Shown here in pieces: positions 16,100-26,337 of a stretch of 49,988 nucleotides of DNA. The notes under the pieces were generated by a model. That model was not told the origin of the DNA. It did not search any database and saw only the letters and a program-made list of their open reading frames with translations. The number at the start of each line of letters is the position of its first letter. The first letter of the stretch is position 1. A program made the translations under genes and the position numbers. The stretch is from an uncultured Actinomycetes bacterium. Its GTDB lineage: Bacteria > Actinomycetota > Actinomycetes > Nanopelagicales > Nanopelagicaceae. The DNA lies in the NCBI GenBank assembly GCA_937888825.1, contig CALBFE010000019.1:1-49988 (forward strand), given 5' to 3'.

Positions 16100-17686
16100 C
16101 TCGGGTTTGCGTCCCTGACGCAGAAGGCCGAAGGTAACTGCGTCCTCAAGTGCCATTGCAGAGGCTGCAATAACGTTTTCATGAACACCCACGGTGTTCC
16201 ATTCACCCTTGCCATCACTTGTTTCAACTAATACGCGCGTAACAGCGCCTGTGCCCAGGCGTCCTTCAAGGATGCGGACCTTGTAATCAGTGAGTTCTAG
16301 AACTTCTAACTCTGGATAAAGCTCCTTTAGCCCAGTACGCAAAGCATTATCAAATGCGTTAACAGGACCATTTCCAGTACCTGAACAAGAAATCTGCTTA
16401 CCCTTTGCGGTTACTTTAACTTCAGCCTTTGTAAGAATGCTTTGATCTTCAGAGCGCTCAACTGTTGTTAACCAATGATCAATAGTGAAGAAAGATGGTC
16501 GCTTGCCATTCATTTCTTCATGAACAAGAAGTTCAAAAGAGGCATCTGCTGCTTCAAAGGTAAATCCGCGTGATTCCATCTCTTTCACGCGATCAACAAT
16601 GCGCCCGATGAGTTCTTTATCCCCACCAAGGTCAACGCCAAGTTCTTGTGACTTTAATTCGATGGAGGCTCGCCCGGCCATATCAGAGACCAACATGCGC
16701 ATATCGTTTCCGACAGATTCAGGATCTTCATGTTGGTAGAGAGATGGATCAACCTTGATTGCACTGGCATGCAGACCTGCTTTGTGAGCAAAGGCTGAAA
16801 CGCCAACATAAGGTTGGCGCGCACTTGAAGAGACATTTGTAACTTCAGCTACAGCGTGTGAAATTCTGAAAGCTTCACGCAATGCATTCTTTGGCAAAAC
16901 TAATTGATGCTTCTTTAACTCAAGGTTAGCAATGATTGTTACTAGGTCGGCATTACCTGTGCGCTCACCATATCCATTAAGTGTTCCTTGAACATGTGTA
17001 GCACCGGCTGCAACTGCTGCCATTGAGTTAGCAACTGCGCAACCAGTGTCGTTGTGGCAATGAATACCAAGACGCGCAGAGCTTGCAGTTAAAACATCAT
17101 GGACAACTTGGGAAAGCTCATCCGGCAACATTCCACCATTGGTATCGCACAACGCAATTACATCTGCCCCTGCTTCAGCGGCCACACGCACAACCTCTAG
17201 CGCATAGGCACGGTTGCTGCGATACCCATCAAAGAAGTGCTCAGCATCAAGAAATACGCGTTGTCCTTCTGCAATTAAGTGGCTAACAGAGTCACGAATC
17301 ATCTCTAGATTCTCATCAAGAGATGTCTTGAGTGCTAAATCAACATGGCGATCAAAAGCCTTTGCTACCAAAGTAACAGCTGGTGCACCTGAATCACGAA
17401 GTGCGCCAAGTAATACATCATCAGCAGCTTTAACTTTTGGACGACGTGTGGCACCAAAGGCTACAAAAGTAGCGTTCTTTAGGGTTAATTCTTTTTTAGC
17501 ACGAGCAAAAAACTCAGTGTCCTTAGGGTTTGCACCTGGCCATCCGCCTTCAATAAATCCAACACCAAGATCATCTAAGTGCCGCGCAATAGTCAACTTG
17601 TCATGGACAGAGAGATTTAATCCTTCTTGCTGGGCACCATCGCGCAGAGTGGTGTCATAGATATGAAATGCGTCAGAGACTGGCAT
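16097..17686 (-). CDS. cimA: (R)-citramalate synthase CimA
   Basis: Condenses acetyl-CoA with pyruvate to (R)-citramalate, opening a threonine-independent route to 2-oxobutyrate and isoleucine. The N-terminal HMGL/IPMS-type TIM barrel shows YDTTLRDGAQQEG (10-22) and a divalent-metal site in HCHND, followed by NGYGERTGNADL. A C-terminal LeuA-type regulatory dimerisation domain occupies roughly 390-520. Length 529 fits CimA; the GAQQEG variant and missing Leu-specific features argue against LeuA or homocitrate synthase. Its ATG overlaps the ilvE TAA by one base. LeuB next door can carry out the following dehydrogenation. Confidence 0.9.
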   Translation of the reverse strand: MPVSDAFHIYDTTLRDGAQQEGLNLSVHDKLTIARHLDDLGVGFIEGGWPGANPKDTEFFARAKKELTLKNATFVAFGATRRPKVKAADDVLLGALRDSGAPAVTLVAKAFDRHVDLALKTSLDENLEMIRDSVSHLIAEGQRVFLDAEHFFDGYRSNRAYALEVVRVAAEAGADVIALCDTNGGMLPDELSQVVHDVLTASSARLGIHCHNDTGCAVANSMAAVAAGATHVQGTLNGYGERTGNADLVTIIANLELKKHQLVLPKNALREAFRISHAVAEVTNVSSSARQPYVGVSAFAHKAGLHASAIKVDPSLYQHEDPESVGNDMRMLVSDMAGRASIELKSQELGVDLGGDKELIGRIVDRVKEMESRGFTFEAADASFELLVHEEMNGKRPSFFTIDHWLTTVERSEDQSILTKAEVKVTAKGKQISCSGTGNGPVNAFDNALRTGLKELYPELEVLELTDYKVRILEGRLGTGAVTRVLVETSDGKGEWNTVGVHENVIAASAMALEDAVTFGLLRQGRKPE

Positions 17687-19803: not shown

Positions 19804-22437
<2,634 letters not shown>

Positions 22438-22725
22438 TTAGTTCTGGTAATCGGGTTGAGTGTCGTGTACTGCTGGTGCTGTCTTATTTGGAATTATCTC
22501 TTTAATAGAAATGACATTGATCAACTTATCGAGCTGAGCAATTACTTGCTCGAGCGCATGGCCTTCCAAATTAACCACAATGTCCATCTGTGAGATGGAT
22601 GGGTCAGTTGTTGGTCCAACAGATAAGCGTTCAATGTTGTATGCACGGCGAGAAAAGAGGCCAGCAACGCGGGCCAATACACCAGGTGAGTTTTCTACTA
22701 AAACTTCGAGTATGTGTTGGGCCAT
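22438..22725 (-). CDS. ilvN: Acetolactate synthase small subunit, short single-ACT form
   Basis: Regulatory subunit of acetohydroxyacid synthase that mediates valine feedback. The N-terminal ACT domain is intact: LEVLVENSPGVLARVAGLFSRR and YNIERLSVGPT. The protein stops at 95 residues, whereas actinobacterial IlvN is usually about 160-175 with a second C-terminal domain. The stop is followed after 12 bases by ilvC, so no frameshifted remainder can be hiding. E. coli IlvN and IlvM show that short forms can work. A GGAGC Shine-Dalgarno lies before the ATG, two bases after the ilvB stop. Confidence 0.92.
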   Translation of the reverse strand: MAQHILEVLVENSPGVLARVAGLFSRRAYNIERLSVGPTTDPSISQMDIVVNLEGHALEQVIAQLDKLINVISIKEIIPNKTAPAVHDTQPDYQN

Positions 22726-22727
22726 AT

Positions 22728-24464
22728 TTATAGCTCCTGTGAATCCCAGTCAGGCGTGGTTTCACGCGCGATCATGATGTCGTCATTTGATGTTCCGGCA
22801 GCAACCATCGGCCACACCATTGCGTCGCGATGAACGCGAAAATCAATAACAACAGGTTGATCATTAATTCCCATTGCTTTTTCAATAGTTGCATCAACAT
22901 CTTCTTCTCGTTCACAGCTCAAACCAACACAGCCCATAGCTTCTGCAAGCATTGGGAAGTTTGGAACACGTTTTGATTCAAGGTTTGTATTTGAATATCG
23001 ACCTTCATAGAACATGGTTTGCCACTGACGAACCATGCCAAGAGATTCATTATTAATGATTGCGACCTTGATTGGAATATTGTTGAGTGCACAAGTTGTG
23101 AGCTCTTGATTAGTCATCTGGAAACAACCATCACCATCAATTGCCCACACAGTTGTATCTGGTGCTCCAACTTTTGCTCCCATTGCAGCAGGAACGGCGT
23201 AACCCATTGTTCCAAGACCACCTGAGTTAAGCCATGTGCGCGGGTTTTCATATGAAACAAATTGAGAAGCCCACATCTGATGTTGTCCAACACCTGCAGC
23301 AAAAATAGCTTCAGGACCTGAGATTTTTCCAAGTCTTTCAATTACATACTGTGGAGATAATGTCCCATCATTTGGTTTGTCATAACCCAATGGATAAGCA
23401 GCTTGAAGTGAATTCATCTGGTTCAACCATGGGGTTAAATCTGGTTGATTCTTTGCAAGAGCGCTTTTAAGGGCTGGAATCAGCGCAGAGATAGTGTTTT
23501 TGAGATCACCCAACACGGCAACATCAGCAAAGCGGTTCTTACCAATTTCAGCAGGATCAATATCTGCGTGAAGAACCTTGGCATTAACTGCAAATGTTGA
23601 AAGCTTGCCTGTAACACGGTCATCAAAGCGGGCACCTAAAGTAATGAGAAGATCTGCTTTTTGTAGCGCTGTAACTGCAGCAACCGTTCCGTGCATACCA
23701 GGCATTCCAAGATGCAATGGATGGCTATCAGGGAATGCACCACGGGCCATAAGAGTTGTTACAACCGGTGCGCCGAGTAGCTGTGCGAGTTCTAGTAGTT
23801 CGCGTGATGCATTTGCTTTAATTACTCCGCCACCAACATAAAAGACTGGCTTACTAGATTGCGTAATCAATGCAGCTGCATCCAGGATGGACTGATTATC
23901 TGGGATTGACTTTGGCTTATATCCAGCCAAGTTAACAGAAGTTGGATATTTAAAATCTGTCATTGCTTGCAGGGCATCTTTTGCAATATCGACCAGTACT
24001 GGACCCGGACGGCCTGTACTGGCGATATAGAATGCTTCAGCGATCGCGCGTGGAATATCGGCAGGGTTAGTTATTAGATAATTGTGCTTTGCAAATGGCA
24101 TTGTGATGCCACGAATATCAGCTTCTTGAAAAGCATCGGTTCCAATTGCAACTGAAGGAACCTGGCCTGTAATTGCAACGACTGGAACTGAATCCATTGC
24201 AGCATCTGCCAATGGTGTTACAAGATTTGTTGCACCTGGACCTGATGTAGCAATACACACACCAACGCGACCAGTTACTTGGGCATAACCTGTTGCAGCA
24301 TGTCCCGCGCCTTGTTCGTGGCGAACAAGAATGTGGCGGATAGAGCTAGAAAAAATTGGATCATAGGCTGGAAGAATTGCACCACCTGGGATTCCGAACA
24401 TGACATCAACGCCTGCAGCTTCAAGGGATGCGACAAGTGAACTCGCCCCATTCATCTGACTCAT
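22728..24464 (-). CDS. ilvB: Acetolactate synthase large (catalytic) subunit
   Basis: Thiamine-diphosphate and FAD enzyme making acetolactate (for Val/Leu) and acetohydroxybutyrate (for Ile). The catalytic glutamate is in [15 protein letters not shown]. The FAD segment lies mid-protein and the TPP-binding motif is [14 protein letters not shown] through NNES. I used the ATG at 24464 ([11 protein letters not shown], 578 aa) with AAGGGAGAAG upstream; an ATG nine codons earlier would consume that ribosome-binding site. It follows the leader peptide and terminator at 24508-24592 and is the first structural gene under that control. Confidence 0.95.
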
Positions 24465-24507
24465 AGTTCTTCTCCCTTCGTTGCCTTGCATTTATAGTGA
24501 TGAAACG

Positions 24508-24531
24508 AAAAAACCCCCAGATAACTGAGGG
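24508..24531 (-). terminator. ilvB attenuator terminator
   Basis: Minus-strand arms CCCTCAG (24531-24525) and CTGGGGG (24520-24514) pair fully with one G-U, enclosing TTAT, and are followed by six T residues (24513-24508). It lies about 44 bases upstream of the ilvB ATG and 32 bases after the leader-peptide stop. Together with that peptide it forms a textbook amino-acid attenuator. Confidence 0.88.
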
Positions 24532-24533
24532 CG

Positions 24534-24560
24534 GCGCATGATCATTGTTAGATCACGCGC
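24534..24560 (-). promoter_or_regulatory. Hairpin between leader peptide and ilvB terminator
   Basis: GCGCGTGATC (24560-24551) pairs with GATCATGCGC (24543-24534) over ten positions with one G-U, around a 7-base loop. It starts two bases after the leader-peptide TAG and ends two bases before the terminator stem. It is the natural candidate for the pause or 1:2-type structure of the attenuator. A competing antiterminator pairing was not resolved by eye. Confidence 0.7.
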
Positions 24561-24562
24561 TG

Positions 24563-24592
24563 CTAAATCACCACCACAAATGTTGTGCTCAT
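24563..24592 (-). CDS. ilvB leader peptide (Val-Val-Val-Ile)
   Basis: Nine-residue open frame ATG to TAG encoding MSTTFVVVI, with GGAG about 10 bases before the ATG. Three consecutive GTG valine codons plus ATT isoleucine, placed just ahead of a hairpin and a terminator upstream of ilvB, are the hallmark of a ribosome-stalling attenuator peptide sensing charged tRNA-Val and tRNA-Ile. No leucine codon is present, so regulation should answer to Val/Ile rather than Leu. Similar leader peptides are known ahead of ilvBNC in Corynebacterium. Confidence 0.85.
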   Translation of the reverse strand: MSTTFVVVI

Positions 24593-24632
24593 GGGGATAT
24601 TCTCCAATGAATTACGCATAAGAGTCAAGGCA

Positions 24633-24648
24633 TGAGATGCACATCTCA
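24633..24648. promoter_or_regulatory. Inverted repeat upstream of the ilvB leader peptide
   Basis: TGAGATG (24633-24639) and CATCTCA (24642-24648) form a perfect 7-bp inverted repeat with a 2-base centre, 15 bases after the ilvD stop and about 40 bases before the leader peptide. It lacks a T-tract, so it is not a standard terminator. It may be a regulator operator or the start of the leader RNA fold. A TTGACT lies just downstream, but no convincing -10 box follows at the right distance. Confidence 0.4.
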
Positions 24649-24663
24649 CAATTTGAGCCAGCT

Positions 24664-26337
24664 TTACTCGCAGACCGCGCCTTTGGATGCAGATCCCACC
24701 AGTTTTGAATACTTGGCCAATACCCCGCGGGAGTATTTGTGACCCAATGGCTTCCAGCCAACTTTTCTAGCCTCAAGCTCTTTGGGGTCAACAAGTAAAT
24801 CCAATGTGCGATGAGTGATGTCGATTCGAACTAAATCGCCATCTTTAATAAATGCAATCGGTCCACCGTCAACAGCCTCTGGTGCGACATGACCAACACA
24901 CAATCCAGTTGATCCACCAGAGAAACGTCCATCAGTTAAAAGCAGAGTTGATTTGCCAAGACCCGCGCCTTTTATTGCGCCAGTAATCATTAACATTTCT
25001 CGCATTCCAGGACCACCCTTAGGTCCTTCATAGCGAATTACAACTACATCACCAGCTTGAATTGTTCCGTTCTCAAGTGCATCCATTGCAGCTTGTTCAC
25101 GTTCAAACACTCTGGCAGGTCCTTCAAATGATTCAATTCCAATACCTGCGGTTTTACAAACAGCACCCTCGGTGGCAAGTGAGCCACCCAAAATAGTAAT
25201 TCCAATATCTGTTGAGATTGGTGAAGAAACTGCGCGCAAGATCTGCCCGTCTGGATCTGGTGGTGCAATATCTTTCAAATTCTCTGCCATTGTTTTGCCT
25301 GTAACAGTTAAAACATCACCGTGAAGCAGGCCAGCATCGAGTAATCCCTTTAATACAACTGGAATTCCACCAACTTTATCGACATCACTCATTACAAACC
25401 TACCGAATGGCTTGAGGTCCCCCAGCAGTGGAACCTTTGAACCAATGCGATGAAAGTCATCCAGTTCAAGATCTACTTCTGCTTCATAGGCAATAGCTAG
25501 CAAGTGCAGAACTGCGTTAGTAGAACCACCTAATGCCATCAATATTGTGATCGCATTTTCAAATGCTTGTTTCGTCAAAATATCGCGAGTAGTAATTCCT
25601 TGGCGGATGAGTTCAACCACGGCAGCACCTGATGCAATTGCATAAGTATCACGGCGGCGATCAACGGCAGGAGGCGCAGCTGATCCAGGAAGTGAGAGCC
25701 CAATAGCCTCACCAATACTTGCCATGGTGTTTGCTGTATACATACCGCCGCAAGCACCTTCGCCAGGACAGATTGCACGTTCAATTTGATCCACGCGCTC
25801 TTGGGTAATTAACCCACGAGCACAAGCTCCAACAGCCTCAAAGGCATCGATGATTGTTACATCTTTTCCATCAACTTGGCCTGGCAGTGTTGAACCTGCA
25901 TAAACAAAAACACTTGCAACATCGATGCGAGCTGCTGCCATCATCATTCCTGGAAGAGATTTATCGCAACCGGCAAAAGTTACCATGCCATCTAAACGCT
26001 CTGCTTGCATAACAGCTTCAACTGAGTCTGCAATAACTTCACGTGAAACTAATGAAAAGTGCATTCCTTCATGGCCCATTGAAATTCCATCAGAGACAGA
26101 GATAGTTCCAAACTGCATGGGGAATCCGCCTGCATCAATGACACCTTGCTTTGATGCCTTAGCTAGACGATCTAAAGATAAATTGCAGGGAGTAATTTCA
26201 TTCCAAGAAGATGCAATACCAATTTGGGGTTTAACCCAATCATCATCACCCATTCCAACTGCACGTAACATTCCTCGTGCAGGGGCGCGCTCTAATCCAT
26301 CAGTTACAACTCCCGAGCGCGGCTTCATGTTTGGCAT
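24664..26337 (-). CDS. ilvD: Dihydroxy-acid dehydratase
   Basis: Fe-S enzyme dehydrating dihydroxy acids to 2-oxo acids in Val/Ile/Leu synthesis. Cluster cysteines are recognisable in [21 protein letters not shown] and [16 protein letters not shown]; the C-terminal half has [11 protein letters not shown] and [12 protein letters not shown]. Length 557 fits. It starts 9 bases upstream of the last coding region of gatB without a Shine-Dalgarno, and has a candidate -10 directly upstream. The ilvB leader follows, so ilvD lies outside attenuator control unless the transcripts are joined. Confidence 0.95.

Follow-up and report, generated by a model that had tools for sequence, protein, structure and literature searches.

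In enterobacteria, the trp, his and ilv leaders follow a three-segment logic as standard. In actinobacteria, leader peptides accompanied by terminators were predicted upstream of ilvB by Seliverstov et al. in 2005 (PMC1262725), and two such leaders have been examined by mutation. In Mycobacterium tuberculosis, induction requires the LVVI codons and was abolished when LVVI was changed to AAAA; a short RNA that ends at the terminator is also present (PMC13236596). In Corynebacterium glutamicum, replacement of VVV abolished the response to valine, mutations in the terminator raised expression, and the transcript starts beside the leader ATG (PMC11857589). Codon changes in the ilvB leader of Streptomyces coelicolor were, however, reportedly without effect (PMC1262725), which counts against the attenuation reading. 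Our literature search found no paper describing an ilvB attenuator in Nanopelagicales.

The ilvD-ilvB Intergenic Region

The genes around the leader all lie on the minus strand of the window, that is, the whole 49,988-nt stretch of DNA that was analysed. The ilvD gene (end at 24664) is located 5' of the leader, and ilvB, ilvN, ilvC and serA are located 3' of it; a 199-nt gap holding the parts of an attenuator separates ilvD from the start of ilvB at 24464. Read along the minus strand, the elements follow in the order palindrome, −35, −10, leader ORF, hairpin A, terminator, GGGAG and ilvB:

24633..24648, minus strand: 16-bp palindrome TGAGATGTGCATCTCA, immediately 5' of the −35 element, a putative regulator-binding site (conservation)
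24623..24628, minus strand: predicted −35 element TTGACT (consensus scan; genus conservation)
24599..24604, minus strand: predicted −10 element GAGAAT (GANAAT in relatives), containing the GGAG of the initial annotation (fixed spacing, 6 nt before the ATG)
24563..24592, minus strand: leader ORF MSTTFVVVI, ending in TAG; the transcript probably begins at or near 24592 (sequence, conservation)
24548..24562, minus strand: in-frame codons past the stop, Q-R-V-I-stop (sequence; compared with relatives)
24534..24560, minus strand: hairpin A, 10 bp, candidate antiterminator (fold; two-sided changes at 7/10 pairs; ribosome-footprint folding)
24508..24532, minus strand: intrinsic terminator, stem GCCCTCAG/CTGGGGGT and U tract (fold; two-sided changes at 3/8 pairs, 99.9% of cells paired)
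24472..24476, minus strand: Shine-Dalgarno sequence GGGAG of ilvB (sequence)
22728..24464, minus strand: ilvB, acetolactate synthase large subunit, the regulated gene (NCBIfam NF005860 and TIGR00118)
22438..22725, minus strand: ilvN, short small subunit of 95 aa, second operon gene (TIGR00119, positions 2-79 of 158)
21388..22425, minus strand: ilvC, ketol-acid reductoisomerase, third operon gene (TIGR00465)

The initial annotation, made from the letters of the window, had placed an MSTTFVVVI frame, a 10-bp hairpin, a 7-bp terminator with six T residues and a GGAG between ilvD and ilvB, and its coordinates and description were correct. The assembly measures 1.37 Mb. IlvB relatives at 79-96% identity come from Nanopelagicaceae and from further actinobacterial genomes of uncultured freshwater organisms, and on this basis the source organism is assigned to Candidatus Nanopelagicales, Actinomycetes, as a streamlined freshwater member.

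Two observations were made on neighbouring genes. At 95 aa, IlvN amounts to only the first half of a typical small subunit, the ACT domain. Most genus-mates have an IlvN of 91-95 aa, whereas its length is about 156-186 aa in other genera of Nanopelagicales and in further Actinomycetes; these lengths indicate that the C-terminal half was lost in one lineage, and this shortening may alter valine feedback inhibition. A second LeuA-like ORF of ~530 aa, with a weak match to TIGR00970, is also found near the ilv genes (about 16100-17100, minus strand) and perhaps encodes a citramalate synthase.

Conservation of the Leader Peptide

The leader ORF (24592-24563) reads ATG AGC ACA ACA TTT GTG GTG GTG ATT TAG. 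A mini-ORF ending in a run of at least four V/I/L codons and followed by a terminator within 90 nt was detected at this single site in the 50-kb window, and first-order Markov controls gave two such matches in 12 windows of 50 kb. The decisive evidence that the arrangement is more than chance is its recurrence, which passes the test of conservation in close relatives set by the initial annotation: readable upstream DNA was available for 85 of the 86 ilvB loci sampled in the genus, and the Val-Val-Ile core, hairpin A, the terminator and their spacing were found in all 85. The leader peptides of the genus differ at the N-terminus and in the position of the stop (MSTTFVVVI, MQKKLALISSSVIVVVIR and MRSSVVIRKRAI, each followed by a stop codon), and despite this variation the VVI codons stand at a nearly constant distance from hairpin A. 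The Q-R-V-I-stop codons behind the stop of the leader are still in frame and are likely left over from the longer tail (RAI, RVG) that the peptides of relatives have; in this genus, the stop codon has probably moved forward.

The last two Val codons of the leader were GTG in 148 of 150 cases (75 distinct genus leaders), those farther upstream being less uniform; the share of GTG among the Val codons of the long ORFs of the window was 16%. In the genome, tRNA-Val genes with the anticodons GAC and TAC were found and none with CAC, so that the leader GTG codons should be decoded by tRNA-Val(UAC). The fixation of GTG may reflect the choice of an isoacceptor or a constraint on the RNA.

At the family level, a covariance model of the leader (R1) matched 186 of 206 genomes, spread over 14 of the 16 genera; the order-level set consisted of these same 206 genomes. 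That the two remaining genera, g5 and g7, had lost the element was considered and rejected, as R1 had missed divergent copies: these genera carry the leaders MRMLSRISVRLERAS and MARRIIVVMERAD (by-eye translation, each ending at a stop), and behind each leader lie a pair of adjacent hairpins and a T tract. The layout is thus present in 16/16 genera. Other Nanopelagicales genera have intermediate leader peptides, such as MSKILVVGQRAI and MATAVVIRKRAI, and across the class ilvB leaders of like layout were found in Kitasatospora (MTTRILVLGGRVG), Kribbella (MRSILLVLVRRAD), Nocardioides (MRQDILVRTRRVS) and Jiangella (VRFGILVLH), all ending at a stop codon and most followed by a GC-rich hairpin beside a CCCCTC... 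terminator with a U tract. The kinship with these class-wide leaders is drawn from similarities in layout, position and peptide, and not from a tree; the layout, the peptide tail and the promoter spacing are continuous with those of other Actinomycetes, the tail surviving in the window only as a remnant past the stop.

The MSTTFVVVI ORF of this species contains no Leu codon. The leuA gene of the same genome has its own Leu-codon leader (within G000:C20:6800-7600), MNTRSLLLSCRGGVK followed by a stop, about 154 nt upstream, and then a terminator-like hairpin, GAACCCCTCGCTGCGGGGTTT. A Leu-run leader also stands before leuA at 13 more loci of the family, and in the other family loci our simple search did not find a leuA start or a Leu run. 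Some genus-mates carry Leu codons in the ilvB leader, e.g., MSTALVVVVVI, so the earlier proposal that Val and Ile, but not Leu, are sensed here applies to this species and to the fixed core. Within these limits, it is backed by the codons and by the separate leuA leader, which points to one operon for the sensing of Leu and another for that of Val/Ile.

Hairpin A and the Terminator

The arms of hairpin A, GCGCGTGATC (24560-24551) and GATCATGCGC (24543-24534), form 10 bp. The terminator pairs CCCTCAG (24531-24525) with CTGGGGG (24520-24514) over 7 bp (8 with a G-U pair) and is followed by TTTTTT (24513-24508). The minimum free energy of positions 24600-24500 was −38.6 kcal/mol versus −24.4 (sd 3.5) in shuffled sequences (z = −4.0), and 0 of 200 shuffles were as good. 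Among 97 distinct aligned family leaders, in an alignment that was fitted to the covariance model so that pairing counts favour that model, two-sided changes were observed at 7/10 pairs of hairpin A and 3/8 pairs of the terminator (10 pairs versus 4.5 in shuffles), and 96.9% of cells were paired, compared with 92.1% after shuffling of the columns and 24-54% for slid versions. Both hairpins thus covary across related genomes, an outcome in line with the initial annotation, which had named covariation as a check.

Hairpin A touches or overlaps the base of the terminator in all 75 distinct genus leaders (gap of −3 to +1 nt), and the gap is mostly −1 to +1 nt in other genera and in the class; since the scans spanned only about −4 to +3 nt in the genus and up to +5 nt elsewhere, it is the clustering, and not the range, that serves as evidence. 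The same closeness was obtained independently from alignment A1. The overlap between the two bases amounts to only 0-2 nt in the window and is mostly absent in relatives.

A fold search for a competing antiterminator had also been suggested. No third helix or antiterminator sharing the 5' arm of the terminator appeared in the consensus fold or in single folds, so that no further structure was recovered, but hairpin A itself emerged as the candidate. Two other pairings of GUGGUGAU were noted. In some folds this segment pairs with the sequence directly 3' of the U tract, a pairing that was rejected as the downstream partner is absent in other genus-mates. On paper, GUGGUGAU could also pair, with one bulge, to the 3' strand of the hairpin A stem, but the regulatory sign of such a helix would be unclear.

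Predicted Promoter and Upstream Palindrome

The GGAG of the initial annotation is indeed present, at 24605-24602, but it probably belongs to a −10 box and is less likely to serve as a Shine-Dalgarno sequence. The motif GANAAT, in a search whose pattern itself required GANAA at that place and which 79 of the 83 loci with enough sequence fitted, is constant 6 nt 5' of the ATG; among 77 distinct genus sequences, 68 have G as the N, 6 have C and 3 have some other base. The role as a Shine-Dalgarno sequence is not favoured because the last G thus varies while GANAAT is kept and because, in the examples inspected from outside the order, GGAG is absent there. TTGAC was located 35-37 nt from the start in 73/73 genus loci and 35-38 nt 5' of the start in 32/32 loci of other genera; outside the order, it was present at the same distance in 56/77 loci. 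As the spacing of −35, −10 and ATG is that expected for a transcript starting at the ATG, the leader ORF is probably leaderless, with a transcript that begins at or near its start codon.

The palindrome TGAGATGTGCATCTCA has one exact copy in the genome. Its form TGAGA-N6-TCTCA was found 5' of TTGAC in 64/73 genus loci and 26/32 loci of other genera, and in 0/77 loci at the same place outside the order. Because it lies 5' of the predicted promoter, it would act at the DNA level, as the possible site of a regulator able to work in addition to the attenuator. For LtbR/NdgR as the binding protein, our literature search yielded no motif for comparison.

Proposed Mechanism and Alternative Explanations

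The effect of ribosome position was modelled in 102 leaders by folding the RNA downstream of a ribosome whose edge was set 15 nt from the P-site. The median number of expected pairs in hairpin A was 10.9, 9.9 and 7.6 with the A-site at the two Val codons and the Ile codon, respectively, and 0.4 with the ribosome at the stop codon, at which 75/102 leaders retained fewer than 3 pairs. In this model, ribosome position switches hairpin A as attenuation needs, a stall keeping it and completion of the peptide removing it, and hairpin A is the best antiterminator candidate and probably itself the antiterminator, with no further structure. The terminator was free to fold in every simulated state, so we infer that hairpin A must oppose it through contact, folding order or the few shared bases.

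These results make it very probable that a Val/Ile leader-peptide transcription attenuator, in which ribosome stalling sets hairpin A against the terminator, controls the ilvB operon. This is the best-supported reading of the locus and the one put forward by the initial annotation, and it is upheld by the conserved codons and hairpins, by their covariation and by the tested M. tuberculosis and C. glutamicum leaders. The transcript would start at or beside the leader ATG, and a ribosome would load on the leaderless RNA end. With ample Val- and Ile-tRNA, the ribosome would reach the stop and its leading edge would block hairpin A by covering the 5' arm; the terminator would then fold and most transcripts would end past the U tract. 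With Val- or Ile-tRNA in short supply, the ribosome would stall at GUG GUG GUG AUU with its edge near the base of hairpin A, which would form first and hinder the terminator, because it touches or slightly overlaps the 5' base of the latter, and transcription would enter ilvB.

A classical three-segment attenuator, in which a separate antiterminator shares the 5' arm of the terminator and hairpin A is a pause or protector hairpin, is unlikely. It would follow the scheme usual for the trp, his and ilv leaders of enterobacteria, and the stem CCCTCAG/CTGAGGG is nearly invariant, beyond what a bare terminator needs, but the consensus and single folds offer no conserved third helix, and hairpin A itself covaries and forms in the right direction according to ribosome position. 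The chance that a riboswitch, a T-box or a protein-binding leader controls ilvB, the peptide not being the sensor, appears very small. ppGpp riboswitches govern ilvB in some Firmicutes (PMC10272879), and the conserved palindrome could be taken to point to a binding protein; however, a search of Rfam 15, which includes the T-box and the ppGpp riboswitch, gave no family over the leader at the gathering score, nor up to E = 5, the conserved unpaired part falls on the Val/Ile codons, and a palindrome 5' of the predicted promoter, hence acting on DNA, could be an additional control. That the element is a mere terminator of the upstream ilvD transcript, with an incidental mini-ORF, is extremely improbable, even though it lies directly 3' of ilvD on the same strand: the Val-Val-Ile codons are kept in every one of the 85 genus loci at constant spacing to hairpin A, a conserved predicted promoter precedes the ORF, and like leaders stand before ilvB across Actinomycetes, so that we consider this explanation refuted by conservation.

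Comparison with Known Attenuators

The initial annotation had compared this leader with those of enterobacteria and Corynebacterium. The closest systems are indeed actinobacterial, and the enterobacterial ones are not the closest: the ilv, leu and trp attenuators of enterobacteria share the logic proposed here, in which a codon-dependent stall selects the antiterminator or the terminator, but they use overlapping segments 1:2, 2:3 and 3:4, and no such set was found here. The LEU element of actinobacterial leuA (PMC1262725), with its Leu-run leader ORF, is also found at leuA of this genome, and the Nanopelagicales leuA leaders belong to this element of Seliverstov et al.; it differs from the ilvB leader in its gene and its amino acid, in a proposed pseudoknot and in having no clear classical attenuator (PMC1262725).

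The attenuator of M. tuberculosis ilvB1NC shares with the present locus an intrinsic terminator and the operon order ilvB-ilvN-ilvC, and its published model, in which a ribosome at the stop masks the antiterminator, resembles in outline the one proposed here; it has been tested experimentally, and its regulatory codons, LVVI, include Leu (PMC13236596). The C. glutamicum ilvBNC attenuator, or ilvB-II motif, likewise has a VVV leader, and its start beside the ATG and its adjoining antiterminator and terminator match the predicted start and the candidate antiterminator of the present locus (PMC11857589, PMC10272879); its two hairpins share a GCC boundary (PMC11857589); unlike here, its peptide MTIIRLVVVTARRLP is longer and contains Leu codons, and its hairpins lie partly inside the ORF (PMC11857589, PMC10272879).

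A strongly streamlined free-living lineage thus most likely still regulates its main branched-chain operon through codons, and the promoter, leader and terminator together occupy about 120 nt. The element is ordinary in kind and well conserved, and it is suited to a clean study of the exclusion between neighbouring hairpins, which the large natural alignment makes testable in actinobacterial ilvB attenuators. A broader joint reading, which we advance only as a tentative and rather doubtful proposal, would be that actinobacterial ilvB antiterminators block mainly by standing against the 5' base of the terminator, without shared pairing, and that in Nanopelagicales the control codons were restricted to GUG, for which tRNA-Val(UAC) is the sole reader, giving an isoacceptor-specific valine gauge.

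The ilvB leaders described in Corynebacterium, Mycobacterium and Streptomyces (PMC1262725) combine, as here, a short ORF of branched-chain codons with a U-tract terminator in the same place and order, whereas the run here consists of Val and Ile only and the stop precedes the RxI tail, Nanopelagicales being absent from that study. Judged on these shared features, the ilvB leader analysed here is a further case of the known actinobacterial ilvB leader-peptide attenuators, in which the absence of a Leu codon, the early stop, the GTG-only core and the promoter palindrome are features of the lineage.
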